A stretch of 49,256 nt of DNA from Bacteroidota bacterium (GTDB taxonomy: Bacteria; Bacteroidota; Bacteroidia; UKL13-3). The stretch covers positions 1-49,256 of the forward strand of contig JAUXUD010000051.1 in the NCBI GenBank assembly GCA_030680835.1, read 5' to 3'. Made by a program: the position numbers and the translations under genes. The notes under the pieces are model-generated. The model saw nothing but the letters and a program-made list of their open reading frames with translations, was not told the origin of the DNA and did no database searches. Of the stretch, positions 9,416 through 43,144 are shown piece after piece. How positions within the stretch are numbered: the stretch's first letter is position 1; every line of letters begins with the position of its first letter.

Positions 9416-10313
9416 AATTTATCTGATTATTTTATTGGGAACTTTATTCTCAATGCAAACAACTGCCCAGGAGTTTTTGGCCCGGGTGCGTATTAACGAT
9501 GTGCAGGTTCAGATTGCAGATAAGAGTATTTTTAGAAATCTTGAAAATCGCTTATCGGAGTTTTTAAACACAACCCGCTGGTCAACGGAAACCTTTCAGC
9601 AAAATGAAAAAATTGAACTGAACATCGAAATTATTCTGGGTGCTTACGACCAAACAACTTATGAATACAAGGCATCTGCAATTATTCAAAGCCGCCGTCC
9701 GGTTTTTGGTACCAGCTACAATACTACCGTTTTTAGCTTTAACGATGAGAACTTCGACTTTAAATATCAGGAGCAGGACCGGATGGATTACCAGGAAGGT
9801 CAGTATCAGAACGACCTGAATTCACTGATGTGTTTTTATGCCTATTATGCCCTGGCCATGGATTTTGACTGCATGGCTCCCGAAGGAGGAACCGCATTTT
9901 TTGGAAAAGCATTTCAGGTATCCAATATTGCCCAGCAATCGAGCGGGCGCAGTGGCTGGAAACCTTTTGAAAGAACCCTAAGAACCCGATATAATCTGAT
10001 TGATAACATTTTAAACGAGCGGTTCAGACCCTTGCGCAATGCCTATTATATTTACCATAGAAAAGGAATGGATCAGTTTATTAAAGACCCGCTGCTGGCA
10101 CGAAAACAAATAATGGGCTCGCTGGAACTGGTAAAAAAAGTATTTAAAATTGCGCCAAACACAGTAATGCTGCTTGTTTTTTTTGAAGCCAAAAGCGATG
10201 AGTTGGTTAATATATTTAAAGGCGCCGAAGATTTTGAAAAACCTAAAGTAATTGACCTTTTAAGTGAAGTAAATATTTCAAACATTTCTAAATACGAAAA
10301 AATACGAAGTTGA
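9408..10313 (+). CDS. porD: DUF4835 / PorD-like T9SS-associated protein
   Basis: A 301-residue periplasmic protein. Residues 1-20 are a signal peptide ending TTAQ. The rest fits DUF4835: LARVRINDVQVQ, FRNLENRLSEFLNTTRW, NEKIELNIEIIL, and a long FFEAKSDELVNIF C-terminal region. The family is linked to type IX secretion and gliding (PorD); the biochemical role is unclear. It overlaps coaBC by eight bases, a placement repeated across Bacteroidota. recN often follows this pair; here a VIT1 transporter does instead. Confidence 0.85.
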   Translation: MHKIYLIILLGTLFSMQTTAQEFLARVRINDVQVQIADKSIFRNLENRLSEFLNTTRWSTETFQQNEKIELNIEIILGAYDQTTYEYKASAIIQSRRPVFGTSYNTTVFSFNDENFDFKYQEQDRMDYQEGQYQNDLNSLMCFYAYYALAMDFDCMAPEGGTAFFGKAFQVSNIAQQSSGRSGWKPFERTLRTRYNLIDNILNERFRPLRNAYYIYHRKGMDQFIKDPLLARKQIMGSLELVKKVFKIAPNTVMLLVFFEAKSDELVNIFKGAEDFEKPKVIDLLSEVNISNISKYEKIRS

Positions 10314-11038
10314 TGACAAACGCAGTACACCACCACCACAACGAAGAACATTTTAATGGCAGCGCCCTAGTGCGGGATATCGTAATTGGTATGAGCGATG
10401 GACTTACTGTGCCGTTTGCCCTGGCTGCCGGTTTAACCGGTGCAGCGGTAAGCAACGGGGTTATCGTTACTGCGGGTATGGCCGAAATTGTTGCTGGCAG
10501 CATTGCCATGGGTTTGGGAGGCTATATGGCAGGCAAAACCGAAATTGAACATTATAGCAGCGAATTAAGACGTGAATATTTTGAAGTGGAGCAATATCCT
10601 GAACGCGAAAAACAAGAGGTAAGGGAAGTGTTTGCCGAGTATGGTTTAAGTGAAAGTGCACAGGAAACCATTGTTGAGGAACTAGCCAAAGACAAAGACA
10701 AGTGGGTGAATTTTATGATGCGTTATGAACTGGGCCTGGATAAACCGGATATTAACAGGGCACGTAAAAGCGCAATGAATATTGGTGTTTCATATATAAT
10801 AGGAGGTATTGTTCCCTTAAGTACTTACTTCCCGATATTTAGTACCAATGCACACGATGGATTTGTTTACTCTTGTATTATTACCGCAATTTGCCTGTTT
10901 ATTTTCGGGTATTTTAAAACCAAAATTATTGGTCAGCCACCCCTTAACGGTGCCTTTAAAACCTTATTTATTGGTGCCCTTGCAGCGGGCTCAGCATATA
11001 TTATTGCCAATTTAATATCAGGACAGTTAATGTTTTAA
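10313..11038 (+). CDS. VIT1/CCC1-family metal transporter
   Basis: A 241-residue inner-membrane protein that should move iron or manganese out of the cytosol. The ATG at 10313 overlaps the porD stop in a TGATG junction, so translation is coupled; a TTG just before it is a less likely start. A His-rich N-terminus (HHHH, then EEHF) is followed by the VIT1 signature DIVIGMSDGLTVPFALAAGL, a cytosolic helical metal-binding region (YSSELRREYFEVEQ, then EREKQEV) and three further membrane segments. Confidence 0.9.
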   Translation: MTNAVHHHHNEEHFNGSALVRDIVIGMSDGLTVPFALAAGLTGAAVSNGVIVTAGMAEIVAGSIAMGLGGYMAGKTEIEHYSSELRREYFEVEQYPEREKQEVREVFAEYGLSESAQETIVEELAKDKDKWVNFMMRYELGLDKPDINRARKSAMNIGVSYIIGGIVPLSTYFPIFSTNAHDGFVYSCIITAICLFIFGYFKTKIIGQPPLNGAFKTLFIGALAAGSAYIIANLISGQLMF

Positions 11039-21732: not shown

Positions 21733-21818
<86 letters not shown>

Positions 21819-21981: not shown

Positions 21982-23196
21982 ATGACACCAACCTTTAGTA
22001 TCCTGTTTTATATCAGGAAAGATAAATCAATAGATGATGAAACAACTGCACCTATATACTGTCGTATTACTATCAACGGAAAGAGAGCGGAGTTTTCTAC
22101 CAAAAGAAATGTGCCGATTAGTAAATGGAAACCAGGGTCAGAATCAGTTACAGGGACCAATGAGTTTGCCAAAGCGACCAACCATTATTTGTCACAAGTT
22201 AAATCTCAATTACATGAGTTTTATGCACGACTTCAAAGAGATGAAAAGGTTATTACTGCACCAATTTTAAAGAAAGTATATTTTGGACTGGATAAAGTTG
22301 ATTATGGATTGTTTAAATTATTTGAAGACCATAATTATCAGATTAAGGAACTCATTGGGCAAAAATACGCTGCTGGTACACACCAAAGATATCAAACTAC
22401 ATTTGAACACATTAAGAAATACATAGCATTTAAGTATCACAGGACTGAGTTTAATGTAAGAGAAATCGATTATGATTTTATAACTGGTTTAGATCATTAT
22501 CTGAGGGTGAAGCATCATTGTAGCAACAACACTGCATTAAAGTACATCAAAAACTTTCGAAAGTTAGTAATCCTTGCGAAATCTAAAGGATTAATTACAT
22601 CTGATCCATTTAACAATTTCAAAACAAAACTAGAACCTGTTGAACGAGGCTATTTAACAGAAGAAGAATTGAATTCCATTGCAGGCAAAGTTATAACAAA
22701 TACCAGGATTGACCAAATACGAGACATCTTCTTATTCCAGTGTTATACTGGATTGGCATACATTGATATTAAACAGCTGAAAAGGTCCCAAATTATTAAA
22801 GATGAGGAAGGCAAGCAATGGATTCGAACTCACAGAGAGAAAACCAATACTCTTGTAAAAGTGCCAATATTTCCAGTTGCATTTCGGATAATCGAAAAAT
22901 ATCAAAATCATCCAGAATGTGAAGAAGGTGGGTTGGTTTTGCCAGTAAAAAGTAATCAGAAAATGAATGTATATTTAAAGGAATTAGGCGGCATTTGCGA
23001 CATCGAAAAAAACATGTCAAGTCATTTAGCCAGACATACATTTGCTACTACTGTAACGCTTAAAAACGGCATTAGCTTGGAAGTAGTATCAACAATGCTT
23101 GGTCATAAAAAGCTTAGTACCACAAAAATTTATGCAAAGATGCTGGATGAGCGAGTTGGTAATGAAATGGGAAAAATTGCCGATAAGTTCAAATAA
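21982..23196 (+). CDS. int: Tyrosine recombinase / integrase of the element
   Basis: A 404-residue site-specific recombinase. An N-terminal arm-binding region and SAM-like domain (about 85-205) are followed by the catalytic domain. Catalytic residues are His348 and Arg351 (HLARH), His375 (LGHKK) and Tyr384 (TTKIYAK). The first catalytic Arg is replaced: the motif reads CYTGLAYIDIKQL, with Ala where many integrases have Arg. This substitution is common in Bacteroidota integrases; IntDOT of CTnDOT also lacks this Arg. The position beside attL fits tRNA-targeted integration and excision. Confidence 0.95.
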   Translation: MTPTFSILFYIRKDKSIDDETTAPIYCRITINGKRAEFSTKRNVPISKWKPGSESVTGTNEFAKATNHYLSQVKSQLHEFYARLQRDEKVITAPILKKVYFGLDKVDYGLFKLFEDHNYQIKELIGQKYAAGTHQRYQTTFEHIKKYIAFKYHRTEFNVREIDYDFITGLDHYLRVKHHCSNNTALKYIKNFRKLVILAKSKGLITSDPFNNFKTKLEPVERGYLTEEELNSIAGKVITNTRIDQIRDIFLFQCYTGLAYIDIKQLKRSQIIKDEEGKQWIRTHREKTNTLVKVPIFPVAFRIIEKYQNHPECEEGGLVLPVKSNQKMNVYLKELGGICDIEKNMSSHLARHTFATTVTLKNGISLEVVSTMLGHKKLSTTKIYAKMLDERVGNEMGKIADKFK

Positions 23197-23556: not shown

Positions 23557-23886
23557 GTGATGTTTATGTTACCCACCTGGCAATTTAAATCTCAATTTAA
23601 AAAATTGATGACCGAATTAACAAACTTGCTTCCAAGGGAGCAAGAACCTCATACTGATTTAAAAAAAATCATTGAGGAAATGATACTTAATCTTAACCCC
23701 TTTGCAAAAAGGTGGTTAAGAACACAGGAGGTGAAGGCCATTTTAGGACTTTCAACCTCGGCAATTCAAAACCTGCGTATAGCAGGTGTTCTACCATATA
23801 CTAAAATGGGTGGAACTATTTATTATGATTACCAAGATATAAATGCAATCCTGGTTAAAAACAAGGTGTCGTATGGAAGAGAATAA
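23557..23886 (+). CDS. HTH_17 / excisionase-like DNA-binding protein
   Basis: 109 residues from a GTG at 23557; ATGs at 23560 and 23566 are also possible. The C-terminal half is a MerR-like winged helix of the HTH_17 type: RWLRTQEVKAILGLSTSAIQ, then GVLPYTKMGGTIYYDYQDI. On Bacteroidota elements such genes serve as excisionases or regulators of excision. It overlaps the next gene by 14 bases, so the two are coupled. Confidence 0.85.
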   Translation: MMFMLPTWQFKSQFKKLMTELTNLLPREQEPHTDLKKIIEEMILNLNPFAKRWLRTQEVKAILGLSTSAIQNLRIAGVLPYTKMGGTIYYDYQDINAILVKNKVSYGRE

Positions 23887-27991: not shown

Positions 27992-28870
27992 ATGTTAAGG
28001 AAAGCAAAAAGAAAGAACGCCAAACTTAAATTGGCATTACAGGGACCAAGTGGTTCGGGCAAAACCTATTCCGCACTATTAATAGCATTTGGCTTATGTG
28101 GCGACTGGAATAAGATTGCTGTCATCGATACAGAGAACTATTCAAGTGAGCTATACTCTGATTTAGGGGATTTTAATGTTCTACCTATTCTGGAACCTTA
28201 CGCACCGGAAAAATATGTTGAAGCAATTGGTATTTGTGAAAAAGAGGGAATGGAAGTTATCATCATTGACTCGATTAGTCACGAATGGGAAGGTCAGGGA
28301 GGAATACTTGATATTCACGGAAATATGGCTGGCAATAGCTTTGCCAATTGGGCAAAGGTTACTCCACGGCACAACAATTTTACAACTGCAATCATTCAGT
28401 CTTCATGCCATGTTATTGGAACTATTCGTACTAAACAGGATTATGTGCTATCTGATAAGAATGGCAAAATGGTCCCTGAAAAAGTTGGATTGAAAGGTGT
28501 TACCCGGGATGGTATGGACTATGAGTTCACACTTGTTTATGATATAGACATTAAACATCAGGCTACAGCATCCAAAGACAGAACTGGATTGTATGCAGAT
28601 AAGCCCAGTCGTGTGCTTGGTAGTATTGACGGAATGCTACTTAAGAGCTGGTGTGAGGCTGAATTATCATTGGATGATATCAAACTTCTTATTGCCGATT
28701 GCAAGTCAATAGAAGAGCTTAAAGAAGTCTATAAGCAATACCCTTCTTACCAGGAGAAACTACTTGATAATTTCAAAAGCAAAAGGGACCAGCTCGAAGC
28801 TGAGTCCAAACAGACTTTTATTTCCAACTTTCAAAAAACAAATTTTAATCCAAATGGAAACATTACTTGA
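27992..28870 (+). CDS. Phage-type RecA-like ATPase
   Basis: 292 residues. Walker A GPSGSGKT (18-25) and Walker B VIIIDS (about 89-94), then SHEWEGQGG and a CHVIGTIRTKQDYV strand. This is the AAA_24/Sak4-like group found in phages and integrative elements, thought to aid strand annealing or recombination. The C-terminal tail is helical. It overlaps the DUF3871 gene by 17 bases, so the two are coupled. Confidence 0.82.
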   Translation: MLRKAKRKNAKLKLALQGPSGSGKTYSALLIAFGLCGDWNKIAVIDTENYSSELYSDLGDFNVLPILEPYAPEKYVEAIGICEKEGMEVIIIDSISHEWEGQGGILDIHGNMAGNSFANWAKVTPRHNNFTTAIIQSSCHVIGTIRTKQDYVLSDKNGKMVPEKVGLKGVTRDGMDYEFTLVYDIDIKHQATASKDRTGLYADKPSRVLGSIDGMLLKSWCEAELSLDDIKLLIADCKSIEELKEVYKQYPSYQEKLLDNFKSKRDQLEAESKQTFISNFQKTNFNPNGNIT

Positions 28871-29813
28871 TAAACCAAAACAAAGAATTCAATTCTCAAC
28901 AGAATCCCAATTCATAAAGGCTAATACAATTGAAGCTTCTTATGAACACTTGCAAAAAGATTGCACAATCCCTGTATTTTCCAAAGATAATGAATGTACA
29001 ATTTCACATGTTGAGTTCATTGAAACAGCGTATGAAGTTGCTGAACATATCTTTAAGGGCGAACAAATCAATTACCCATCTGTACGTGTTTCCCATGCGA
29101 TTAAAGGGCGTATTCCAGAGGCAATCTCCAAACCTGCCAATCTTCTTTTAGATCATGAACGAACAATCTACTATGAGCGTATGGCATTTCTGATTGAGAT
29201 ACCTAATTTGAAATGTACAGTTGGTGAGAATCAATTAGCTCTTTGTATAGGTGGTGTTCGGGCTTACAACCATGAGAACCTTTTTAACCGCAAAACTGAG
29301 GAGAAATTTAAAGTGTTCATTGGCTTCCAAAATAAAGTATGTTGTAACCTTTGCATTTCTACAGATGGTTATAAGGCAGAACTCAGAGCAAGAACAGTTG
29401 AAGAATTAGGTAGTGGGATATTTGACCTCGTAAAATCCTTCAAGGCGGAGAAGTTCATTCAGGACCTTAAACTGATGCCAAATTATGCGATTACAGAGAC
29501 GCAATTTGCTCAGTTGATTGGTAAGATGCGCATGTACTCTTTAATGCCTGTAACCTCACGAAAAGGACTTCCAAACCTACTCTTAACAGATACCCAGATT
29601 AGCTCAGTTGTTAAGGATTATTACACTGACAAAAACTTTAGTAGGAATGAAGATGGAAGCCTGAATTTGTGGAACTTTTTAAACTTGCTGACTGAATCAA
29701 ATAAGTCATCTTACATTGATAATTTCCTGGACCGTTCAACCAATTCTTTTGATCTGGTTAAACATCTTTTTTCTGCTATTTCACAAAAGGAATATTCTTG
29801 GTATCTTAACTAA
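28854..29813 (+). CDS. DUF3871 family protein
   Basis: 319 residues from ATG 28854, within the end of the preceding gene. It has DUF3871 features: FIGFQNKVCCNLCISTDGYKAELRA, ITETQFAQLIGKMRMY, LTDTQISSVVKDYYTDKNFSRN and SSYIDNFLDRS. The family is confined to mobile DNA of Bacteroidota and has no proven function; its constant neighbour is a RecA-like ATPase, which suggests a joint role in DNA replication or repair. Confidence 0.88.
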   Translation: METLLDKPKQRIQFSTESQFIKANTIEASYEHLQKDCTIPVFSKDNECTISHVEFIETAYEVAEHIFKGEQINYPSVRVSHAIKGRIPEAISKPANLLLDHERTIYYERMAFLIEIPNLKCTVGENQLALCIGGVRAYNHENLFNRKTEEKFKVFIGFQNKVCCNLCISTDGYKAELRARTVEELGSGIFDLVKSFKAEKFIQDLKLMPNYAITETQFAQLIGKMRMYSLMPVTSRKGLPNLLLTDTQISSVVKDYYTDKNFSRNEDGSLNLWNFLNLLTESNKSSYIDNFLDRSTNSFDLVKHLFSAISQKEYSWYLN

Positions 29814-29817
29814 TCTG

Positions 29818-30045
29818 ATGAAAAAGCCAATATTATACTGGTCCCCATATTCCATATTGGTCAGTACTGCAAAAGGTTTGGTTCGAAAAAGTTGCCCTTT
29901 CCCTGTCCTGTCCATCCATGATACTAAGGATATTGGACGTGGACAACAATTTTTTGTCAAGATGGTTCGAGAAACTGAACTGGGCAAACTTGAATTCGAG
30001 ATTAATGAAAATTGGTACTTGTACAGTCATTGGAAAATAATATAA
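29818..30045 (+). CDS. Small hypothetical protein
   Basis: 75 codons starting four bases after the DUF3871 stop. It has basic SYILVSTAKGLVRKS-like and IHDTKDIGRGQQF segments and an aromatic C-terminus (ENWYLYSHW). Compact, soluble, unknown. The tight spacing to both neighbours supports the gene. Confidence 0.6.
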   Translation: MKKPILYWSPYSILVSTAKGLVRKSCPFPVLSIHDTKDIGRGQQFFVKMVRETELGKLEFEINENWYLYSHWKII

Positions 30046-30051
30046 TACACT

Positions 30052-30501
30052 ATGGAATGTTTAGATAAAGTAGCGGAAATTGAGGTTAGATACCTACCAA
30101 AAAGAGTCTATGGTCAGAAAATTAAAGAGTCAAAGGATATTGTGAATTGCTTAAAACCCTATTACAACTTGAACACAATCGCTTTGCAAGAGGAATTTTT
30201 TATCTTGTATATGAACAGAATTGGCAATGTATTAGGCGTTTACAGGCATAGTATCGGAACCATGAGCCAAACAATGGTTGACATTAGGTTAATACTTGCA
30301 ACAGCCCTTAAATTGGGCAGTCAAAGATTTGCTTTATCCCATAATCATCCAACAGGTAACTTGGTCCCCTCTGTACAGGATATTCATTTAACACGCAAGA
30401 TTATAGAAGCTGCAAGAATAATGGATTTAACTGTGATTGACCATTTGATTGTTGACCCAGATTTTAACTTTTACAGTTTTGCTGATAAGGGCGAATTGTA
30501 A
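30052..30501 (+). CDS. radC: RadC-like JAB-domain protein
   Basis: 149 residues: the JAB/MPN metalloprotease-like domain only, without the N-terminal HhH of chromosomal RadC. Metal site SHNHPTGNLVPSVQD (His97, His99, Asp110) with Glu48 upstream. Such short RadC proteins are frequent on mobile elements, with a role in DNA repair or recombination not established. It ends the operon; a strong terminator follows. Confidence 0.88.
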   Translation: MECLDKVAEIEVRYLPKRVYGQKIKESKDIVNCLKPYYNLNTIALQEEFFILYMNRIGNVLGVYRHSIGTMSQTMVDIRLILATALKLGSQRFALSHNHPTGNLVPSVQDIHLTRKIIEAARIMDLTVIDHLIVDPDFNFYSFADKGEL

Positions 30502-30507
30502 AACTAG

Positions 30508-30543
30508 AAAACAAGATTCATGAAAGTGAATCTTGTTTTTTTT
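30508..30543 (+). terminator. Rho-independent terminator after radC
   Basis: Perfect 13-bp stem AAAACAAGATTCA / TGAATCTTGTTTT with a 6-base loop and a T-run to 30543. It separates the recombination operon from cas12a, so the effector must have its own promoter in 30544-30669. Confidence 0.85.
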
Positions 30544-30669
30544 AATCATTAAAATTAATCATTAAGAATAATCTATAAATATTGTTAATTTCGCCTATAG
30601 TGTTTGATCAAAATAAATTTTTTACTCCAGAATACTTTTCAAAATATTTCATAATTAATAAATATTTGT

Positions 30670-33600
30670 ATGAGCATTTTTTCAAATTTTCAAAACCTTT
30701 ATGGGCTTTCCAAAACATTAAGATTCGAATTAATCCCTCAAGGGGAAACCTTGGACTTTATCCAGAAAAACGGAATTCTTTCAAAAGATGAAAGTCGAGC
30801 GGAAAGTTATAAAATAGCAAAAAAGATTATCGATGAATATCACAAGGATTTTATCAATAAGGCATTGGAGGGTTTGAAACTAAGCAGACTGGACGAATAC
30901 TTCCAACTTTACAAAATTCAAAACAAAGATGAATATCAAAAAAAGCAATTTGAGGAAATTCAAGCTGTTTTAAGAAAACATATTGCAGATCGATTTAGCA
31001 AACATCCTGATGACGTAATCAAAAACAGATATAAGAATTTATTCGGAAAAGAACTAATAAAAATTGATTTAAAGGAATTTGTTACCAAGCCAGAAGAATT
31101 AAAAATTGTGAATGAATTTGAAAATTTCACCACCTATTTTACAGGATTTCATGAAAACAGGGCCAATATGTATACCCATGAAGATAAATCGACTGCAATT
31201 TCCTTTAGGCTAATCAATCAGAATCTTCCAAAATTTATCGATAATCAAGGAATATTTGAAAAAGTTGTTCAAAGCCCATTGAAGAATAAATTTCCAACTA
31301 TCCTGAAGGATTTAAATTCAATACTTCAGGTAAATAATATTGAGGAAATGTTCCATCTCGAATCTTTTAATGAAACCCTAAACCAATTAGGTATAGATAG
31401 ATATAATTACCTTTTAGGTGGATACACTTCAGATGACGGTAAAACAAAAATACAGGGTTTAAACGAACATATAAATTTGTATAACCAACAGGTGCTTGAC
31501 AAAAAGGATAAAATTGCCAAGTTAAAACCTCTGTTCAAACAAATTTTAAGTGACAGGAATACAACATCATTTTTACCTGAAGAATTTAGAAGTGATGCAG
31601 AATTATTAGAAAGCATAGAAAAATTTTACCAAGAAGTTAAGTATCAGGTTCTGGAAACAAAAAACAATGAAATAATCACTTTGCCTGAATTACTTCGCCA
31701 AATTACTGATTTTGATTTATCCAAAATCTATATTAGAAATGATCTTGGGTTAACTGATATATCCCAAAAGATGTTTGGCAATTGGACTGTGATACAAGAT
31801 GCCATTTATAAGGATTTTGCCAAAGTTTATAAGGGTAAAGCAAAGCAAGGAAGCGAGAAGTATGAAGAAGAGCAAAGCAAGCATTTAAAGCGGTTTGATA
31901 GCTTTTCAATCCAATACTTAAATGAAACCTTGATTTTATTAGAAAATCCTGATTTGCACAAAAATATTGCAGATTATTTCGTCCAATTATCGATTATCAG
32001 TGATAATAATGAGCCTAATCTCTTTGAATCCACAGAAAAAAACTACTCAGCGTTAGAGAATATATTAAAAGCTTACCCCGATAATCAAAACTTGATTCAG
32101 GATCAACAGTCCATCGATAAAATCAAGACCTTACTGGACAATTTTAAACAGGTTCAAAGGTTTATTAAACCCTTGCTGGGCAAAGGAAATGAGGCTGTAA
32201 AAGACGAGAAATTTTATAGCGAATTTGAAAAGTTATGGGAAACACTTGATCAAGTTACCCCTTTATACAATAAGGTCAGAAATTACGTGACTAAAAAGCC
32301 ATACAGCCTTGAGAAGATAAAGCTAAATTTTGAAAATAGCACCTTGCTTGATGGTTGGGACGTGAATAAAGAAGAAGCAAATGCGTCAATCCTTTTAAGA
32401 AAAAATGATAATTATTATCTGGGAATTATGGATCGAAATCATAATAAGGTATTTCGGGACCTTCCAGAATCAAAGACAGATCAATATTTCCAAAAGGTAA
32501 ATTACAAATTATTACCTGGGGCAAGCAAAATGTTACCCAAAGTTTTTTTTAGTGGAAGTAACATTGATTATTTTAAACCTAATGAAAACATTCTGCGCAT
32601 CAGAAATCATGGATCTCATACCAAAAATGGCAAGGCTCAAGAGGGTTATGAAAAGGAGGATTTTGAAGTTAATGACTGTCGTGAAATTATTGACTTTTAT
32701 AAAGATTCATTAGTAAGGCATAATGACTGGAAGCATTTCGGATTTAAATTCAGACCCACAAATGAGTACAATTCAATCGATGAATTTTATAGTGAGGTAG
32801 AAAATCAAGGTTATAGCATTACTTATACCAATATTGACGACAGCTATATATCTGAACTTGTGCATGAAGGGAAACTATATTTATTTAAGATTTACAACAA
32901 GGATTTTTCTGGTAATAGCAAAGGCACACCCAATCTACATACCCTTTATTGGAAAATGGTTTTTGACCCAAACAATTTGGAAAATGTCGTTTATAAACTT
33001 AATGGGCAGGCAGAAATTTTTTTCAGGAAAAAGAGCATCAAAGAGGATAACATTTTCAAACATCTGGCGAATCAAACCATCCCTAACAAAAACGAACTAA
33101 ATACAAAAAAACAAAGTTTATTTGTATACGACATTATAAAAGACAGACGATTTACAATAGATAAATTCCAGTTTCATGTTCCAATTACTATGAATTTTAA
33201 AGCCGACGGTTATTCAAACATCAATACTATAGTAAATCAAGCCATTAAGGAAAATCAAATAAAGCATATAATAGGCATTGACCGAGGCGAAAGACATCTG
33301 CTTTATATAACGGTCATTGATTTAGATGGAAAAATAAAAGAGCAATTCTCGCTGAATGAAATAGTGAATAATTATAATGGTAATGAGTACAAGACCGATT
33401 ATCATTCATTGCTGGATAAAAGAGAAGGCGGCAGAGATGAGTCCAGGAAAAATTGGAAGACCATTGAAACAATCAAGGAATTGAAAGAGGGCTATATAAG
33501 TCAGGTAATTCATCGGATCACAGAATTGATAATTCAATACAATGCAATAGTGGTTTTGGAGGATCTGAATATGGGATTTATGAGGGGTAGGCAAAAAGTT

Positions 33601-34440
33601 GAGAAACAGGTTTATCAGAAATTCGAGAAAATGCTCATTGACAAGCTCAATTATTTAGTTGATAAGAAAAAAGAACCAACTGAAACTGGAGGATTATTGA
33701 ATGCCTTGCAATTAACAAACCCATTTGTGAGCTTTCATAAAATTGGTAAACAGAGCGGTTTCCTTTTTTACATTCCTGCCTGGAATACAAGTAAAATGGA
33801 CCCTGTAACAGGATTTGTCAATCTGTTTCAAATCAAATATGAAAATGTGGAGAAGGCCAGATCTTTTTTAAGTTCCTTTTCAGATATTTCATACAATTCA
33901 GATAAAAAATACTTTGAATTTAGCTTTGACTATTCTCTTTTTACAAATAAAGCGGAAGGCACAAGGACACATTGGGTTGTTTGCACCTATGGCAATAGGA
34001 TTAAAACGCAAAGAAATCCAAACATGAATAATCAGTGGGTTAGTAACGAAATAAATATCACAAATGAGTTTATTACACTTTTCAGTAAATATAAGATAGA
34101 TTACAATCAAAAAAATCTTAAAGTAAGCATATTATCTCAAACAGATAAAGGCTTTTATGAGTCAATTTTGCACCTTTTTAAACTTACTCTTCAAATGCGT
34201 AACAGCATTGCCAATAGCAATGTCGACTATTTAATTTCACCAGTTGAAGACGATAATGGCAAATTTTTCTTCAGCGAAACTGCCTCAAATGATTTGCCCC
34301 AAAATGCTGATGCAAATGGAGCATTTAATATAGCCAGAAAAGGTTTATGGGTTATTGAACAAATTAAAAAATCTGAGGATTTTAAAAAATTGAAGCTTGC
34401 CATTACTAATAAAGAATGGTTAAACTTCGCCCAAAAATAA
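30670..34440 (+). CDS. cas12a: Cas12a (Cpf1), type V-A CRISPR effector
   Basis: 1256 residues, full length (family about 1200-1310). It is an RNA-guided DNA nuclease that also cuts its own pre-crRNA. The N-terminus NFQNLYGLSKTLRFELIP is typical. The WED/PI part holds STLLDGWDVNKE, YKLLPGASKMLPKVFFS and LRIRNHGSHTKNG, the PAM-reading region, so a T-rich PAM is likely. Pre-crRNA processing residues appear kept: His798 (FKHLAN) and Lys824 (DIIKDRRF). RuvC residues are complete: Asp871 (IGIDRGERHLL), Glu964 (VVLEDLNMGF) and Asp1214 (DADANGAFNIA). The Nuc arginine is Arg1177 (LQMRNS). It is flanked by a terminator upstream and a cas4 remnant downstream. No defect seen; probably active. Confidence 0.98.
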   Translation: MSIFSNFQNLYGLSKTLRFELIPQGETLDFIQKNGILSKDESRAESYKIAKKIIDEYHKDFINKALEGLKLSRLDEYFQLYKIQNKDEYQKKQFEEIQAVLRKHIADRFSKHPDDVIKNRYKNLFGKELIKIDLKEFVTKPEELKIVNEFENFTTYFTGFHENRANMYTHEDKSTAISFRLINQNLPKFIDNQGIFEKVVQSPLKNKFPTILKDLNSILQVNNIEEMFHLESFNETLNQLGIDRYNYLLGGYTSDDGKTKIQGLNEHINLYNQQVLDKKDKIAKLKPLFKQILSDRNTTSFLPEEFRSDAELLESIEKFYQEVKYQVLETKNNEIITLPELLRQITDFDLSKIYIRNDLGLTDISQKMFGNWTVIQDAIYKDFAKVYKGKAKQGSEKYEEEQSKHLKRFDSFSIQYLNETLILLENPDLHKNIADYFVQLSIISDNNEPNLFESTEKNYSALENILKAYPDNQNLIQDQQSIDKIKTLLDNFKQVQRFIKPLLGKGNEAVKDEKFYSEFEKLWETLDQVTPLYNKVRNYVTKKPYSLEKIKLNFENSTLLDGWDVNKEEANASILLRKNDNYYLGIMDRNHNKVFRDLPESKTDQYFQKVNYKLLPGASKMLPKVFFSGSNIDYFKPNENILRIRNHGSHTKNGKAQEGYEKEDFEVNDCREIIDFYKDSLVRHNDWKHFGFKFRPTNEYNSIDEFYSEVENQGYSITYTNIDDSYISELVHEGKLYLFKIYNKDFSGNSKGTPNLHTLYWKMVFDPNNLENVVYKLNGQAEIFFRKKSIKEDNIFKHLANQTIPNKNELNTKKQSLFVYDIIKDRRFTIDKFQFHVPITMNFKADGYSNINTIVNQAIKENQIKHIIGIDRGERHLLYITVIDLDGKIKEQFSLNEIVNNYNGNEYKTDYHSLLDKREGGRDESRKNWKTIETIKELKEGYISQVIHRITELIIQYNAIVVLEDLNMGFMRGRQKVEKQVYQKFEKMLIDKLNYLVDKKKEPTETGGLLNALQLTNPFVSFHKIGKQSGFLFYIPAWNTSKMDPVTGFVNLFQIKYENVEKARSFLSSFSDISYNSDKKYFEFSFDYSLFTNKAEGTRTHWVVCTYGNRIKTQRNPNMNNQWVSNEINITNEFITLFSKYKIDYNQKNLKVSILSQTDKGFYESILHLFKLTLQMRNSIANSNVDYLISPVEDDNGKFFFSETASNDLPQNADANGAFNIARKGLWVIEQIKKSEDFKKLKLAITNKEWLNFAQK

Positions 34441-34480
34441 TTTAGGCACGAATATTACGTTTGAAAAGTTCTTTGACATC

Positions 34481-34675
34481 ATGGTAACGTATTTACACAT
34501 AACATTTCTGAACGGTTTAGTGTTTTGTCCATACTCCGTTTATCTACATCAGGTATTTGACAATAATTATGAGGATCTGTATAATTCAAATCCCCAACAA
34601 TTAGGGAAAACTGCACATATTGAAATCGACTCAATTGAATTCGAGGAACCAGATAAAATAAAGGGGCATATGTAA
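34481..34675 (+). pseudogene. cas4: N-terminal remnant of cas4
   Basis: A 64-codon frame 40 bp after cas12a. LNGLVFCPYSVYLHQVF, then Y-NSNPQQLGKTAHIEID, matches the start of Cas4 from type V loci: LN-F-FCP-S-YLH, then PQ--GK-AH--ID. The Cys of FCP would be the first Fe-S ligand. Full Cas4 is about 170-200 residues; the PD-(D/E)XK core and the three other Fe-S cysteines are missing. The frame stops after KIKGHM, seven bases before the first CRISPR repeat. In intact V-A loci cas4 is followed by cas1, cas2 and the leader; all are gone here. Identification is by motif only. Confidence 0.7.
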
Positions 34676-34682
34676 TTAGTGA

Positions 34683-35742
34683 GGTTATAAAGCCTTATAA
34701 ATTTCTACTATTGTAGATTTAAATCACTTGTTAACTAAAATCAAGGTTATAAAGCTTAAAATTTCTACTATTGTAGATAGGCATCGAGGTAGACGCTGAA
34801 CAGTATGGCTACAAAGCCTTATAAATTTCTACTATTGTAGATTTAGTGGTTATATATCGAATTAATTGACTACAAAGCCTTATAAATTTCTACTATTGTA
34901 GATCTTCTGCTTACAAATGGTACAAAAATGAAGGCTACAAAGCCTTATAAATTTCTACTATTGTAGATAATATCAGTTGTTTGATTGATGCTGAAAACTA
35001 CAAAGCCTTATAAATTTCTACTATTGTAGATGCTACCTCCAATAGCTTGTTGTATTGTTGGCTATAAAGCCTTATAAATTTCTACTATTGTAGATTTCAT
35101 TAAGTAGTTTACAAGTTCATTTGGCTACAAAGCCTTATAAATTTCTACTATTGTAGATATCCACAATGCAGAACTTATCTGCACCGAGGGCTACAAAGCC
35201 TTATAAATTTCTACTATTGTAGATGCCTAACATTCACCCCCCTGCTCAATTGGCTACAAAGCCTTATAAATTTCTACTATTGTAGATACATAACTAAAAT
35301 TATGAGGTTAATAGAGTTATAAAGCCTTAAAAATTTCTTCTATTGTAGATATTTGCATAATTAAGATGAATTATTTTTGGGCTACAAAGCCTTATAAATT
35401 TCTACTATTGTAGATTAGAGTAATACCACCGACTAATGAACAAGGCTACAAAGACTTATAAATTTCTACTATTGTAGATATATGAACTAATATGAAAGAG
35501 CTAATAGGCTACAAAGCCTTATAAATTTCTACTATTGTAGATGCGATTGTAAACTTTCGCATGGCTTCCATGTGGGCTACAAAGCCTTATAAATTTCTAC
35601 TATTGTAGATCTACTGTTACTTCATTTCCTTTTACCTCAGGCTACAAAGCCTTATAAATTTCTACTATTGTAGATCAGATTACTTCCATTTCGCGTTCGG
35701 TGTATGGGCTACAAAGCCTTATAAATTTCTACTATTGTAGAT
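34683..35742 (+). CRISPR. Type V-A CRISPR array, 17 repeats and 16 spacers
   Basis: Repeat of 36 bases: GGCTACAAAGCC, then TTATA, then the 19-base Cas12a handle AATTTCTACTATTGTAGAT. Each repeat can form two hairpins, GGCT/AGCC and TCTAC/GTAGA. Transcription is rightward, as for cas12a. Spacers are 25-32 bases. Variant repeats: first (34683, GGTTATAAAGCC), second (34745, 34 bases), fourth and sixth (GACTAC, AACTAC), eleventh (35315, TTCTTC in the handle, breaking the stem), thirteenth (AAGACTT). No leader separates the array from the cas4 remnant, so it is probably read from upstream. Confidence 0.98.
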
Positions 35743-35929
35743 ATATATTAATGCTAATTGACACTAATTTGGCAACTAACCTCGAAGAGACAAAAACAAG
35801 CGATTTGCGCGGGTAAAATATTAGGGCAATGTATATTGTTGCCTGATTGCAAAATCTCGCATTAAATCAACAGAAAATGCTATTTTTGACTAACCAACCC
35901 ACTTTTGATATGCTAAGATTTGTAGTAAT

Positions 35930-36772
35930 ATGCTTTGGTCTAAAATGACTGTAAGAAATCCTTATGCCTTATATGTGAACTGTGATGGTGCGATGGATTA
36001 CGATAAAGTTAATTCAGGTGGGGTTGGATTTGTCGTCAGTTTCCCTGATAATTTAGCTTTAGATGATAGACTGATATCCATTGGAAAATATGAAGGTGGA
36101 AATATTGAAAGAATTGAATACGAAGCAATAATTCAGGCAATGCTGCATGTGATTGATTTATTTTATGAATTGCAGGATGAATTAGCCAATATTAATCAAA
36201 TCATTTTCATTTCAGATAGGTTTGCGCTGCAAGATAGCGAACGAACAAATGTCTATCGAATTAGAGAGTGGAGGAGAAATAATTGGCATAATCATGAGGG
36301 TAAACCGATTAAAAACCATGACCTTCTTGACAGGCTTGACAAGATTCGGAAAAAATTAACAGATTATGCTCGTGCAAGGGTAAATATAGAATATAGGCCC
36401 AGGAAGCAGAATAAAGCAGCAGACAAACTAGCTAAAGCAGGAAAAAAGGAAGGCCTTGTAAAAGATAGCCTTGCTAAAAAAGGTGAAAAAATAGGCAAGA
36501 GATTGTTCAATGGTAATGAAATAAAATACACAAAGCTAAGAGCCGGTTTAGAGTTACACATTCATGTTTTCAGAAAAGATCCTGTTCAGGAACAATGGGA
36601 AGTTTGGTGTGAAATATGTGAGGGAGAAAACAAAGGCGAAAAACTTAAATTATATGTTGATGATATTTTGGCTGCGAAACTTAAGAGGAGAAATCAGTTT
36701 ATTATTAAAATCAAATCGGTTTATAAATATCACATTGGTATCTATAAAACATTGAAAAATATAGAGAAGTAA
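35930..36772 (+). CDS. RNase H-like protein with C-terminal extension
   Basis: 280 residues (Met6 at 35945 also possible). The N-terminal 160 residues have the RNase H fold: YVNCDGAM with the first Asp, GGVGFVV, the helix Glu in RIEYEAIIQAM, Asp in FISDRFALQD, and a final Asp in NKAADKLAKAG. It could cut RNA in RNA-DNA hybrids. A lysine-rich linker and a beta-rich 110-residue extension of unknown role follow (HIHVFRKDPVQEQWEVW). It lies just after the CRISPR array, on the same strand; whether the two work together is not shown. Confidence 0.78.
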   Translation: MLWSKMTVRNPYALYVNCDGAMDYDKVNSGGVGFVVSFPDNLALDDRLISIGKYEGGNIERIEYEAIIQAMLHVIDLFYELQDELANINQIIFISDRFALQDSERTNVYRIREWRRNNWHNHEGKPIKNHDLLDRLDKIRKKLTDYARARVNIEYRPRKQNKAADKLAKAGKKEGLVKDSLAKKGEKIGKRLFNGNEIKYTKLRAGLELHIHVFRKDPVQEQWEVWCEICEGENKGEKLKLYVDDILAAKLKRRNQFIIKIKSVYKYHIGIYKTLKNIEK

Positions 36773-36849
36773 TATAAGCTCTTAATACTAAAATATTTAG
36801 CTTTCAAATCTGCATACGACACCATAAGTTATGCAGAAACTAACTGATA

Positions 36850-37050
36850 ATGATATTAACACCTGGACTTCTTATTGAAGCTGGATTTGTGGTCCAACCT
36901 AATTCTAACCATTGCTACATAAAAGACAATATTCGTGTGACCTTCTATAGTTGGGAGTATATGATAGTTTCAGTTGATGGGAAATCAATTAGAGGTGAAA
37001 ACATTACAATTGAGTATTTTATCAAGGAATATGGGTTCTCACTTGTATAG
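36850..37050 (+). CDS. Small hypothetical protein
   Basis: 66 codons, MILTPGLLIEAGFVVQPNSN to YFIKEYGFSLV; a compact alpha/beta composition with aromatic residues. Repeated in style on Bacteroidota elements; I do not recognise the family. Confidence 0.6.
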   Translation: MILTPGLLIEAGFVVQPNSNHCYIKDNIRVTFYSWEYMIVSVDGKSIRGENITIEYFIKEYGFSLV

Positions 37051-37160
37051 AATATTGTTCTGCTTTTGCAAAGTTTCAATTTTATCTGGTAAATGAGAAA
37101 GCCCTGTCGATGAAATTTTGGATTTCACAATAAGTGCTCTACTTTTGTTATGCATCTTAA

Positions 37161-37580
37161 GTGAACGATCAAGTGCATTTATTCGAAACTTTCGATTTCC
37201 ATCAAAACCAACAGATGAGTAACTTGTCATTAAGCTCTTTTAATATAAATATACAGAAAGTAAGAATCTATTTTAATAACATGTTAAGAGGGAGGAAATC
37301 ACCACTGAATGAATGGAAGGTTATGGACCTTGACCCAGAAACTATTTTTGATTGGGTAGATGTTTATAAATGCAGGTTTATCAAGGAATACAAGACAAAC
37401 AATTACATTTGCCCTAAATGTGAATCAGAAAACTCGGATGAAGCAGTCATTGATATAGTAATGATATATTTTATAAGCCCTGGGTGGACATGGGAACATC
37501 TCTGTGGTCGAGCAGGTAATTTATATATTTGCAAAAAACACAAAAGGCAAATAGATTTTGATTTAATTTCAATGAATTAA
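37161..37580 (+). CDS. Hypothetical protein with Cys-pair motifs
   Basis: 139 residues; the start is uncertain (Met19 at 37215 gives 121). The core LNEWKVMDLDPETIFDWVDVYK is followed by a zinc-ribbon-like CPKCESE, then CGRAGNLYICKKHKRQ, which supplies two more Cys and a His. Probably a small metal-binding cytosolic protein of unknown role. Confidence 0.6.
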   Translation: MNDQVHLFETFDFHQNQQMSNLSLSSFNINIQKVRIYFNNMLRGRKSPLNEWKVMDLDPETIFDWVDVYKCRFIKEYKTNNYICPKCESENSDEAVIDIVMIYFISPGWTWEHLCGRAGNLYICKKHKRQIDFDLISMN

Positions 37581-37793
37581 AGTTTGAATTCTAAAAGACT
37601 TTGTTTTCCCTGCATTAAAGTATCAGATACCAATTTAGAAGCATTAATATTTATAATGTGAATGGTAAATTTAAGTTTAATTTTGTTTTACCGTTTATTT
37701 TCGCAAGTTTTACCAGATAGATTGTGAAGTGGTTTTTTATATTTTGACTTTTGTTAAAAATCCATAGATATTACATATACACATAAAGAAGTT

Positions 37794-38837
37794 ATGATAA
37801 AAATAGCAATGTTTAATAATAAGGGCGGTGTTGGAAAAACAACTTTAACCTGTAATCTTGCATCCCATTTTGCAAAAAAGCATAAGCAGAGAGTACTAGT
37901 TGTAGACTGCGATCCTCAATGTAATGCAACCCAATTGATAATGGGACTTGACTTCGCGGCAGATCTTTATTGGAATCCAAAAACGAGAAGCCCATATACA
38001 ACAATCAGCGACATATTACAACCTATTGAAGACGGAGATGCTAATATAATAGAGAAAATTAATCCAATTCCATACAATATAAATAGATTTGGAGTTTCTT
38101 TAATAGCAGGGCATCCACGCCTTTCTATAATCGAAGACAAGCTGAGTGAAGCCTGGTCGCAATTACTAAGTGGGGATTTAGGTGGGATAAGAAAATCGAA
38201 CTGGAATACAAATCTTTCAGATAAAGTGAAAAATGATTTTGACTTTGTCTTTTATGACTTAGGACCTAGTTTAGGCTCAATTAATAGATCGGTGTTAATT
38301 GGTTGTGACTATTTTGTTACTCCAATGGGTTCCGACATTTTTAGTATTTTAGGAGTTAGGAATATTGCAACTTGGCTCGACTCATGGATTAGTTATTATG
38401 AAAACGGAATTCAACTTTGTGAAAAACAAACTCCGGAAAGAATTAAGCAATATAAAGTTCCTGAAACTCTCTCAATTAAAACTGGTTATCTTGGTTATAC
38501 AATACAACAATATATCACAAAAACAAGGGACGGTGTTAGAAGAGCAACAAAAGCTTATGAAGAGATAATACAAGTCGTTCCCGATGAAGTATATAACTCT
38601 TTAAAGAGCTTTAGTGATGAAAACTTTCAAAAAGAAGACTTTAAGCTTGGCGATGTTCCTCATTTGTATAGTTTAATTCCTCTTGGTCAATCGTCTGCAA
38701 GTCCTATCTTAGATTTAACTGGTTCTGATGGACTTGTTGGTCCTCAGTTCAAACAACTTGAACAGTATCAGCAGTGGATAGATTTCATTACTACTCGAAT
38801 TCAAGAAAATCTAAACATGAAAAGCGAAATAATATGA
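37794..38837 (+). CDS. ParA/MinD-like ATPase of a ParA-SIR2 pair
   Basis: 347 residues. Deviant Walker A NNKGGVGKTT (8-17, with signature Lys10), Walker A' VLVVDCDPQCNAT, and Walker B FVFYDLGP, then LIGCDYFVTPMGSD. The first 200 residues are a standard ParA; the C-terminal 150 residues (RRATKAYEEIIQVV, then LGQSSASPILDL) are an addition. The stop overlaps the SIR2 start (ATGA), so the two are coupled. No ParB gene or parS-like cluster is seen, which speaks against plasmid partition and for a joint role with SIR2, probably sensing or regulating in defence. Confidence 0.85.
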   Translation: MIKIAMFNNKGGVGKTTLTCNLASHFAKKHKQRVLVVDCDPQCNATQLIMGLDFAADLYWNPKTRSPYTTISDILQPIEDGDANIIEKINPIPYNINRFGVSLIAGHPRLSIIEDKLSEAWSQLLSGDLGGIRKSNWNTNLSDKVKNDFDFVFYDLGPSLGSINRSVLIGCDYFVTPMGSDIFSILGVRNIATWLDSWISYYENGIQLCEKQTPERIKQYKVPETLSIKTGYLGYTIQQYITKTRDGVRRATKAYEEIIQVVPDEVYNSLKSFSDENFQKEDFKLGDVPHLYSLIPLGQSSASPILDLTGSDGLVGPQFKQLEQYQQWIDFITTRIQENLNMKSEII

Positions 38838-39691
38838 ACTGGCCAAATGCACTTATAAAAGAACTGGCTGCTAGAAGATGCATTATTTTTCTTGGATCGG
38901 GAGCTTCAGCTGCTAGTAAATCAATAGATGGAAAAACAAGTCCTCCTACTTGGTCTCAATATTTGGAAGGTCTGATTAGTATTATGAATTCAAAATCAGA
39001 CGAACCGCTCATAAGAGAATTAATTACCAAAGATAAGTATTTAGATGCAGCTGAGATTATCGTTAAAAATATTTCTACTGCTAATTATACAGATTATTTG
39101 AGGACAACTCTTCAATTGCCAAAATTTCAAAAGTCTGTAATTCATGAAGCGGTTTTCAAAATTGATCCGAAGGTAGTAATTACAACCAATTACGATGATA
39201 TTTATGATAATTATTGCAAATTAGGCAACTCAGCTAACGGTTATAATATTTGCAAACAAAATGAGACACATCTTGTATCAGACCTTAGATCTCCATATAG
39301 GAGTATTGTAAAATCGCATGGTTGTATTTCTAATCCTGCTGAAACAATTTTAACACGGTCTCAGTTTTTTGAAGCGAGATTAAAGTATTCCAATTTTTAT
39401 AAAGTTCTAGATGGTCTTTTTTTAACCAACACAATACTCTTTCTTGGATATAGCCTTAACGACCCAGATATTCAATTAATTCTCGAAAATGTAAATATTT
39501 CAGCAATTGGTTCTCATCCACATTATGCCTGCATGGCAAATGATATACACCCAACCATAAAAGAAGTAGTGAGAAAAACTTACAATATTGAGTTATTAGA
39601 ATTTGAAGCAGGTAAGTATTCAGAATTGGAGCATGGATTGACAGAACTTGCCAATGAAGTTGAAAGCTATAGACTCACAAACCCAATCTAA
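38834..39691 (+). CDS. SIR2-like NADase, candidate defence effector
   Basis: 285 residues from ATG 38834. SIR2_2 features: GSGAS (21-25), VVITTNYDDIYDNY with Asn119 and Asp121, SHG with catalytic His162, and FLGYSLNDPDIQLIL (203-217). Proteins of this type in prokaryotic defence systems (ThsA, DSR, SPARSA and others) deplete NAD+ when infection is sensed and halt the cell. The four-base overlap with the ParA-like gene makes a two-gene module. No further domain is present, so sensing must come from the partner. Confidence 0.85.
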   Translation: MNWPNALIKELAARRCIIFLGSGASAASKSIDGKTSPPTWSQYLEGLISIMNSKSDEPLIRELITKDKYLDAAEIIVKNISTANYTDYLRTTLQLPKFQKSVIHEAVFKIDPKVVITTNYDDIYDNYCKLGNSANGYNICKQNETHLVSDLRSPYRSIVKSHGCISNPAETILTRSQFFEARLKYSNFYKVLDGLFLTNTILFLGYSLNDPDIQLILENVNISAIGSHPHYACMANDIHPTIKEVVRKTYNIELLEFEAGKYSELEHGLTELANEVESYRLTNPI

Positions 39692-40050
39692 AAGAACTCT
39701 ACCAAATACTGACTGATCAGTGGCCTCTGAGGCATAGAAATTTGTGACAAAATAGGAAATAATTAACCAAGAATATTAAAGGTTAATTTGCTATTATAAA
39801 GGTTTAATTTTACTCTTTGAAGAATTCCTCATTGATGTAATTAGTGCCCTTATAATGCGCTCTAAAGCCCTTTTTGAGCCGATCTGGTTCTTGATTCAGA
39901 AGTATGGTAAAAGAGATATATATTGCATTTTGTTTTCTCAATTATTATCGCAATTTTTACATGCCAGAATGTAGATCGGTTTTTTCACAGTCTGCCGTTA
40001 GTGATAATATTATTCCCGAGTATATATAAAAAGTCAATAGACAATTTTCT
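39692..40050. other. Gap holding a decayed copy of an XRE gene end
   Basis: 39770-39890 resembles 40750-40890, both the 3' end of the XRE gene and its downstream flank. The rest (39890-40050) shows no gene. Confidence 0.55.
39810..39890 (-). pseudogene. 3' fragment of an XRE regulator gene
   Basis: On the minus strand the fragment reads ALERIIRAL in the frame of the intact regulator at 40801-41040 (ALERIIRALNTSASEFF). A deletion then shifts the frame, after which EEFFKE and a stop match the gene's normal end. The HTH part is absent. It is a broken duplicate left beside the ParA-SIR2 module. Confidence 0.7.
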
Positions 40051-43121: not shown

Positions 43122-43144
43122 GGTTCGAATCCCGCCCTCTCCGC
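43122..43144 (+). repeat. attR: duplicated tRNA-Ser 3' end
   Basis: Identical over 23 bp to 21796-21818 and in the same direction. It marks the far end of the element; the bases after it (GAGTAG) are the original downstream flank of the tRNA. Confidence 0.92.

Follow-up and report, generated by a model that had tools for sequence, protein, structure and literature searches.

Introduction

Type V-A CRISPR loci without adaptation genes are already known, and Cas12a cuts its own pre-crRNA, with no other enzyme needed. Type VII and other adaptation-less CRISPR systems carry substituted repeats, which their description reads as rare spacer gain (PMC12669027). In F. novicida, Cas1-Cas2 integration is reported to drop strongly when the first six bases of the repeat are mutated, and full integration to be affected by the repeat 3' end as well, so that the two halves of the repeat are not cleanly divided (PMC13034035). 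The same report places a nonsense codon at position 6 of the F. novicida cas4, and a decaying cas4 therefore has a precedent (PMC13034035).

Here we compare with these systems a V-A locus from a Bacteroidota draft genome of 4.30 Mb (GCA_030680835.1; 104 contigs, 99.84% complete, 0.4% contamination). The stretch of DNA analysed, hereafter the window, has 49,256 nucleotides and is the whole of contig JAUXUD010000051.1. A first-pass annotation of the window had proposed that a deletion running from within cas4 to the edge of the array removed the adaptation module of this locus together with its leader. In a literature search of small scope, no paper was seen from its title or abstract to deal, for V-A loci, with cas4 scars or with arrays mixing repeat families; the novelty of the work is modest, and lies in a readable scar and the pattern around it.

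Results

The cas12a locus is cargo of an integrative element

The cas12a locus travels on a 21.3-kb element inserted in a tRNA-Ser gene and bounded by identical 23-bp att repeats (Table 1). Since the integrase adjoins the tRNA and direct att repeats lie at both ends, this is a tRNA-integrated mobile element. Its G+C content is mostly 31-35%, with one stretch of 38%, against 35-42% in the surroundings. A ParA-like gene is also aboard the element (21796-43144), and Pfam scans of 17 of its proteins revealed no drug-resistance gene. We further observed, at 38774-39691 of the same element, a SIR2-domain protein related to the ThsA and Dsr defence proteins.

With the window counted, Cas12a was present in one of 19 genomes of the genus and in two of 64 genomes of the family. 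Viral contigs and phages held no Cas12a relative, and plasmids gave one remote match. The possibility that the locus is common to the kin of the element was rejected, none of 15 other element genes being found (E 1e-5) in the flanks, up to 6 kb of which were fetched, of the 80 other V-A loci surveyed below. As a separate observation, one family genome in which no Cas12a was found (G056) carries a lone V-A repeat of the kind present in L033, the nearest relative of our locus; it lies at about 1500-1550 of L093, beside a gene that, from its sequence, we take to be miaA-like.

Table 1. Features of the element and of the cas12a locus, in window coordinates
Feature	Position	Strand	Evidence
tRNA-Ser (GGA), integration site of the element	21733..21818	+	ARAGORN; Rfam RF00005
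Left att copy, 23 bp, 3' end of the tRNA	21796..21818	+	exact direct repeat
Tyrosine integrase	21982..23196	+	PF00589, PF13102, PF17293
HTH_17 protein, putatively excisionase-like by position	23557..23886	+	PF12728
RadC-like protein, 5' of cas12a	30052..30501	+	PF04002, E 1.3e-30
cas12a, intact, 1256 codons	30670..34440	+	TIGR04330, 1465 bits; five Cas12a Pfam domains; motifs
Broken cas4: about 57 codons of cas4 homology, then an out-of-frame tail	34481..34675	+	profile matches
TTGACA-N17-TATAAT, perfect, sigma-70-type, in the cas4 stub towards the array; function uncertain	34557..34585	+	scan
cas4 homology continued in the +1 frame, KGAYVISE, to the repeat edge	34660..34683	+	comparison with L033
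Probable deletion joint: cas4 codon ~71 to the first bases of repeat 1	34680..34684	+	comparison with L033
CRISPR array, 17 repeats (consensus GGCTACAAAGCCTTATAAATTTCTACTATTGTAGAT), 16 spacers of 25-32 nt	34683..35742	+	
Repeat 1, variant GGTTATAAAG (C3T, C6T)	34683..34718	+	
Repeat 2, the repeat-1 variant minus two bases in the 5' half	34745..34778	+	
Repeat 11, the repeat-1 variant plus the only handle change of the array; consensus repeats on both sides	35315..35350	+	
Right att copy, 23 bp, identical	43122..43144	+	blastn E 7e-8

The frame after cas12a is a broken cas4

The frame that follows cas12a begins 40 bases after the end of that gene (34440), has 64 codons and closes with a TAA at 34673-34675. 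The first-pass annotation had read it as the first 50 or so residues of Cas4, and the profile searches of the peptide confirm that reading. NCBIfam TIGR04328 (cas4_PREFRAN) aligns residues 6-51 with positions 2-47 of its 178 (E 2.3e-12, 47.3 bits, which is under the curated cut-off of 70, as expected because the frame is a fragment), PADLOC returns Cas4 at E 6.2e-13 and Cas4d weakly at E 0.0037, and a profile built from 35 intact V-A Cas4 proteins scores 60.8 bits with residues 1-53 on positions 1-53. Neither a Pfam match nor a PDB sequence match was obtained for the 64-residue peptide.

That the frame is an independent small gene unrelated to Cas4 could be argued from its being open and having its own start, but it lies directly 3' of cas12a, and the profiles match Cas4 in register from the first residues. 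These in-register matches rule the independent gene out, and we give it practically no credence. A family made of the same 64-codon gene was also looked for by searching the 80 other loci with the peptide (tblastn), and none appeared: at E<0.03 only cas4 5' ends, whole or broken, were matched, and the weaker matches (E 1-10) were scattered.

The frame also falls short of a Cas4 in the sense of TIGR04328, scoring under the cut-off and with homology that reaches to about codon 71 of 190 and stops short of the cysteines at the C-terminus of the L033 protein. The annotation had pointed to the first Fe-S cysteine of Cas4 in this frame; there is indeed a cysteine, Cys16, in an FCP motif that is common to intact Cas4 proteins, and it is presumably an Fe-S ligand. 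The Asp of the LND motif, kept in 35/35 intact Cas4 proteins, is a Gly here. Over its first 53 residues the stub is 66% identical to the L033 Cas4, where 75% would be expected from the Cas12a distance, and, compared at equal Cas12a distance with the N-termini of the 35 intact proteins, it has the lowest mean residual of the 36 (-0.193; residual sd 0.088). Since the L033 Cas4 is itself low (residual -0.115), part of this divergence may predate the loss. Judged by its sequence, the stub is a decaying pseudogene, a broken cas4 rather than a Cas4.

The cas4 homology runs up to the first repeat

On a FastTree of 66 Cas12a proteins the sister of the window is L033, from the Vicingaceae MAG KA17 (local support 97), and by plain identity the Cas12a of L002 is slightly closer (66%). 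L033 consists of cas12a, a RhuM-like gene broken in two (Pfam RhuM matches both halves), a cas4 of 190 aa, cas1, cas2, a leader of about 185 bases and the array, and thereby displays the order cas4-cas1-cas2-leader-array that the annotation had given for intact V-A loci. The two loci are alike in their cas12a genes (65% identical), in the homologous 5' end of cas4, in the direction of the array and in the repeat, that of L033 (GGCTACAAAGCCTTTTAAATTTCTACTATTGTAGAT) being one base off the window consensus. They are unlike in that the window is without almost two thirds of cas4 and without cas1, cas2 and leader, whereas the broken RhuM-like gene between cas12a and cas4 is a feature of L033.

Alignment with L033 carries the cas4 homology beyond the stop codon of the stub. 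From 34660 the +1 frame reads KGAYVISE, identical in 6/8 residues to codons 64-71 of the L033 Cas4 (KGIYVISN), while the other two frames reach at most 2/8; in the underlying block of 24 bases 15 positions agree, a level that 31 of 200000 shuffles attained. Codon agreement ceases at 34680-34683, and 34683 is the first base of the repeat. A deletion edge at the stop codon was rejected, since the homology goes on in the +1 frame past the TAA. Because it crosses the stop in this way, the joint would lie at the 5' edge of the repeat and the early stop would come from a separate frameshift. The annotation had the frame ending seven bases before the first repeat, which is exact for the spacing between TAA and repeat and does not hold for the cas4 homology, which itself runs on to the repeat edge.

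The stretch lost after cas4 codon ~71, up to the start of repeat 1, has no replacement in the window, and since the cas4 homology touches repeat 1 the array has no leader. Beside cas12a there is only the cas4 stub and no cas4-cas1-cas2 module. In the whole genome no Cas1 was found with TIGR00287, TIGR04329 or the L033 Cas1 protein; in control genomes the two families matched in 9/14 and 8/14, with TIGR04329 never over its cut-off, and the L033 protein as a tblastn query finds its relative in L091. A supply of cas1 from elsewhere in the genome was rejected on the grounds that the family searches and the L033-protein search were empty. The search for a second cas4 with the L033 protein recovered only the stub, and no cas2, 3' remnant included, was found within 28001-40000. 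The order of genes in L033 and the genome searches support the proposal that one deletion accounts for the absence of intact cas4, cas1, cas2 and leader, and the event was probably single.

Two other accounts of the joint were weighed. Loss may have come in several steps, the module going first, as in L052, L065 and L073, where by our reading a stretch before the array is kept, and the leader and leader-end repeats following later. Such a course is favoured by the frequency of deletions ending within the 3' part of cas2, which make up the most common kind of scar in our set, but the window has no cas2 3' remnant and its cas4 homology touches the repeat directly; since it does, one deletion takes the fewest steps, and we think the stepwise course unlikely. 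The joint or the frameshift could also be a mis-assembly or a base-call error, given a draft of 104 contigs and repeats that are prone to mis-joins, a point judged on the assembly. Against such an artefact, neither cas1 nor an intact cas4 was found anywhere in the assembly, comparable joints occur in other records and the stub shows excess divergence, all of which makes an error at this place very improbable.

The effector is intact and the array looks readable

The effector belongs to type V-A: TIGR04330 scores it far over its cut-off of 300 bits, and RuvC, Nuc, REC and PI domains are present. The motifs IDRGERH, EDLN and NADANGA are readable, and the equivalents of FnCas12a H843, K852, K869 and D917, counted on the alignment, are kept; we take the first three to serve crRNA processing and D917 to belong to RuvC.

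The repeats end in a V-A handle, AATTTCTAC...GTAGAT, in 17 copies of which 16 are perfect, and in the whole genome, at up to 2 mismatches, all 17 handle copies belong to this array. In the 16 of 17 repeats scored, 15 changes fall in the 17-base 5' half and one in the 19-nt handle (Fisher p 1.3e-4), these 16 changes not being independent because the C3T/C6T variant is common to repeats 1, 2 and 11. Repeats 8-10 and 12, which surround the variant repeat 11, are consensus, so that copying at the leader end offers no explanation for it. Repeats 2 and 11 are, as a further observation, also alike near position 15. The locus retains the parts needed for interference, and its array still looks readable by Cas12a.

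Spacer targets were sought in four sets of sequences. The phage search gave 153 records at E<=10 and no target, the 20 listed having E 0.1-4 and the first of them being an array in a virus record; the plasmid search gave 6 records at E 1-4, again with no target; and in viral contigs there was no exact 20-base seed match for 5/16 spacers. Among 62 family genomes at E<=0.05, the 20 places listed were the array itself, the lone repeat of G056, V-A repeats of G020 and 17 others, with E 0.0045-0.047, which is above the chance expectation for 62 genomes. Five of these 17 were inspected, and four lay on spacer 15 (21-24/29 bases) and one on spacer 5 (17/27). A TTTV-type PAM accompanied one of the five, with a mismatched seed, two of the spacer-15 matches fell inside host genes, and shuffled spacers match 20-22/29 in 0.47 Mb of control DNA; on these sequence comparisons the five are taken as chance. 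Apart from these searches, we noticed that Methanosarcina virus MetMV (MK170447.1), near position 14856, holds 16 pieces 100% identical to the window array, probably handles belonging to a V-A-like array.

Since no spacer target was found, we infer the function of the locus. The lack of a target in phages, plasmids, family genomes and viral-contig seeds, together with the frameshifted stub and the missing leader, would fit a locus that is dying as a whole, in which the module went first and cas12a and array are now unused, yet unbroken. Against this, cas12a is open over 1256 codons with its catalytic and processing residues kept, and the handle was nearly spared while the 5' halves of the repeats changed. 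We regard a dying locus as possible but doubtful.

On the + strand no terminator-like site was found between cas12a and the array. It has also to be considered that the 64-codon frame encodes a functional small protein or is a selected regulatory stretch, such as a new promoter for the array. A working protein is opposed by the lost Asp of LND and by the fast divergence. For a promoter, a scan of both strands of the window finds a 12/12 TTGACA-N16-18-TATAAT once only, in the stub, 97 bases ahead of repeat 1; in simulations 2/3000 stretches scored 12, and in intact cas4 the best score in the first 200 bases of 32 genes was 9; relative to L033 we read three changes in it, all towards consensus. 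Promoters of Bacteroidota are, however, of another type, TAnnTTTG, a strict scan for which found none in the stub. Because of this, and because the site was noticed post hoc, we give it little weight, and we hold it improbable that the stub has been kept for either use.

Adaptation loss may have recurred in V-A loci by similar deletions

The survey comprised the best 80 of 143 loci plus the window, 81 in all. Fifteen of the 81 were left unclassed, 14 for a contig end or unclear order and L014 for a shortened cas4 only. Among the 66 that could be classified, the window counted, 49 have the module and 17 lack a complete one, with classes set by hand and 'lost' meaning not found beside cas12a. 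Within the 49 counted as intact, the cas4 of L057 has a frameshift, the sequence of L023 and of L076 breaks off within cas2 or cas1, and the cas2 of L017 and L068 matched only partly. The MAG of L073 also carries L016 with its module complete; no array was seen at L015 or L071.

On the Cas12a tree the 17 loss labels need 13 changes, all forced by starred branches, and they show little clustering: shuffled labels need 15.2 changes on average, and 46-50 of 500 shuffles need as few as the real ones. Since the tree alone gives no direction of gain or loss, it is the remnants of cas4 and cas2 that indicate loss. In L052 cas4 up to codon ~37 is joined to cas2 from ~74, in L065 cas4 ~27 to cas2 ~57 and in L073 cas4 ~95 to cas2 ~52; in L071 cas4 ~20 is followed by cas2 ~69, and in L074 cas4 ~74 by cas1 ~161. 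L003 retains only cas2 from ~76, its remnant match and that of L071 being weak (E 0.014-0.026). In L053 cas4 ~50 is joined to TGTAGAT, the last 7 bases of a repeat, and this locus is leaderless as the window is. A deletion stopping in the 3' part of cas2 is the most frequent scar of the set (L003, L052, L065, L071 and L073). The remnants suggest that loss of adaptation may have happened many times in V-A by similar deletions that kept the effector. As a separate observation, the left deletion edge is inside cas4 in eight cases (L014, L052, L053, L065, L071, L073, L074 and the window), and in every one of them it falls within the first 95 of about 190 codons.

Repeat changes were counted in the longest array of each locus, leaving out the last repeat. 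Per base, the rates in 5' half and handle were 0.100 and 0.0027 in 12 lost arrays and 0.0042 and 0.0002 in 39 intact arrays (p 0.004 for the 5' half), handle changes being slightly commoner in lost arrays (p 0.017). This difference is carried by L021, L039 and the window, and nine of the 12 lost arrays scored had 0-1 changes in the 5' half. Since repeats are detected by their handle, the handle decay that can be visible in this count is limited.

A mixed array in L021

One of these arrays is an observation in its own right. L021, beside which no cas4, cas1 or cas2 was found, has at 9787-10917 an array in which the 19-nt handle of the 18 repeats hardly varies and the 5' halves come from different families in mixed order. 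Clustering gives two groups, of 7 and 6 units, and five unlike units, and inspection by eye divides the first group into three. The L066 kind comprises repeats 12-14 and 16-18, repeat 13 being identical in its 5' half and the others 1-2 bases off, and repeats 9, 10 and 15 are within 2-3 bases of the L028 repeat. As judged by spacing, no repeat is skipped inside this array or that of the window.

Simple drift was rejected as the source of the L021 array, given that 5' halves recur in families and that one unit equals the L066 repeat; since the families stand in mixed order, leader-end copying cannot be the source either. The units look like imports by recombination through the handle, and mis-assembly could also produce the mixture. 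Six arrays of the survey contain more than one cluster of units, and in those other than L021 the additional cluster consists of one unit each, in several cases a one-base shift or indel. By these comparisons, part of the 5'-half change in L021 is mixture rather than drift. A broader and frankly speculative idea, to which we would give a low probability, is that in V-A loci losing Cas1-Cas2 it is mainly the handle that is selected while arrays are remodelled by inter-array recombination, L021, where units of two or more repeat families, four by eye, alternate under one handle, being the extreme case, the window, whose variant repeats stand out of order, an early one and the stub a promoter.

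Discussion

The reading that we prefer, and consider likely, is a single deletion that was followed by an interference-only Cas12a locus with a frozen memory. An ancestral complete V-A locus, cas12a-cas4-cas1-cas2-leader-array, would have resided on the tRNA-Ser integrative element. One deletion, presumably a single event, would then have run from about codon 71 of cas4 to the 5' edge of a repeat, the joint being visible against L033, and would have taken the remainder of cas4 along with cas1, cas2 and the leader, and possibly repeats at the leader end; the stub would also have been frameshifted into a pseudogene. The locus would in this way have lost its own writing of spacers and retained Cas12a. 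Transcription running on from cas12a, or starting at a promoter in the stub, could serve its array, and the whole would act as a fixed-memory defence confined to interference.

The joint keeps a readable record of lost CRISPR memory-writing. Loci of this kind amount to a natural experiment that helps to tell the demands of acquisition on the repeat from those of interference, and in which the useful lifetime of an immunity that gains no new memory can be studied. The mobile element, moreover, could ferry a fixed target set between hosts.

Among V-A loci, the closest parallels are the six scar loci L052, L053, L065, L073, L074 and L003, which like the window have a cas4 5' stub or a cas2 3' stub beside cas12a and array. 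Only L053 of the six joins cas4 to a repeat as the window does. L052, L065, L073 and L003 retain a stretch before the array and L074 retains parts of cas1 and cas2, whereas the window retains neither. Type VII, like other adaptation-less systems, shares with the window the absence of adaptation genes and repeats with substitutions (PMC12669027). It differs in its other effectors and in that adaptation is absent from whole types or subtypes, whereas in the window it would have been removed by a local deletion with a readable joint (PMC12669027).
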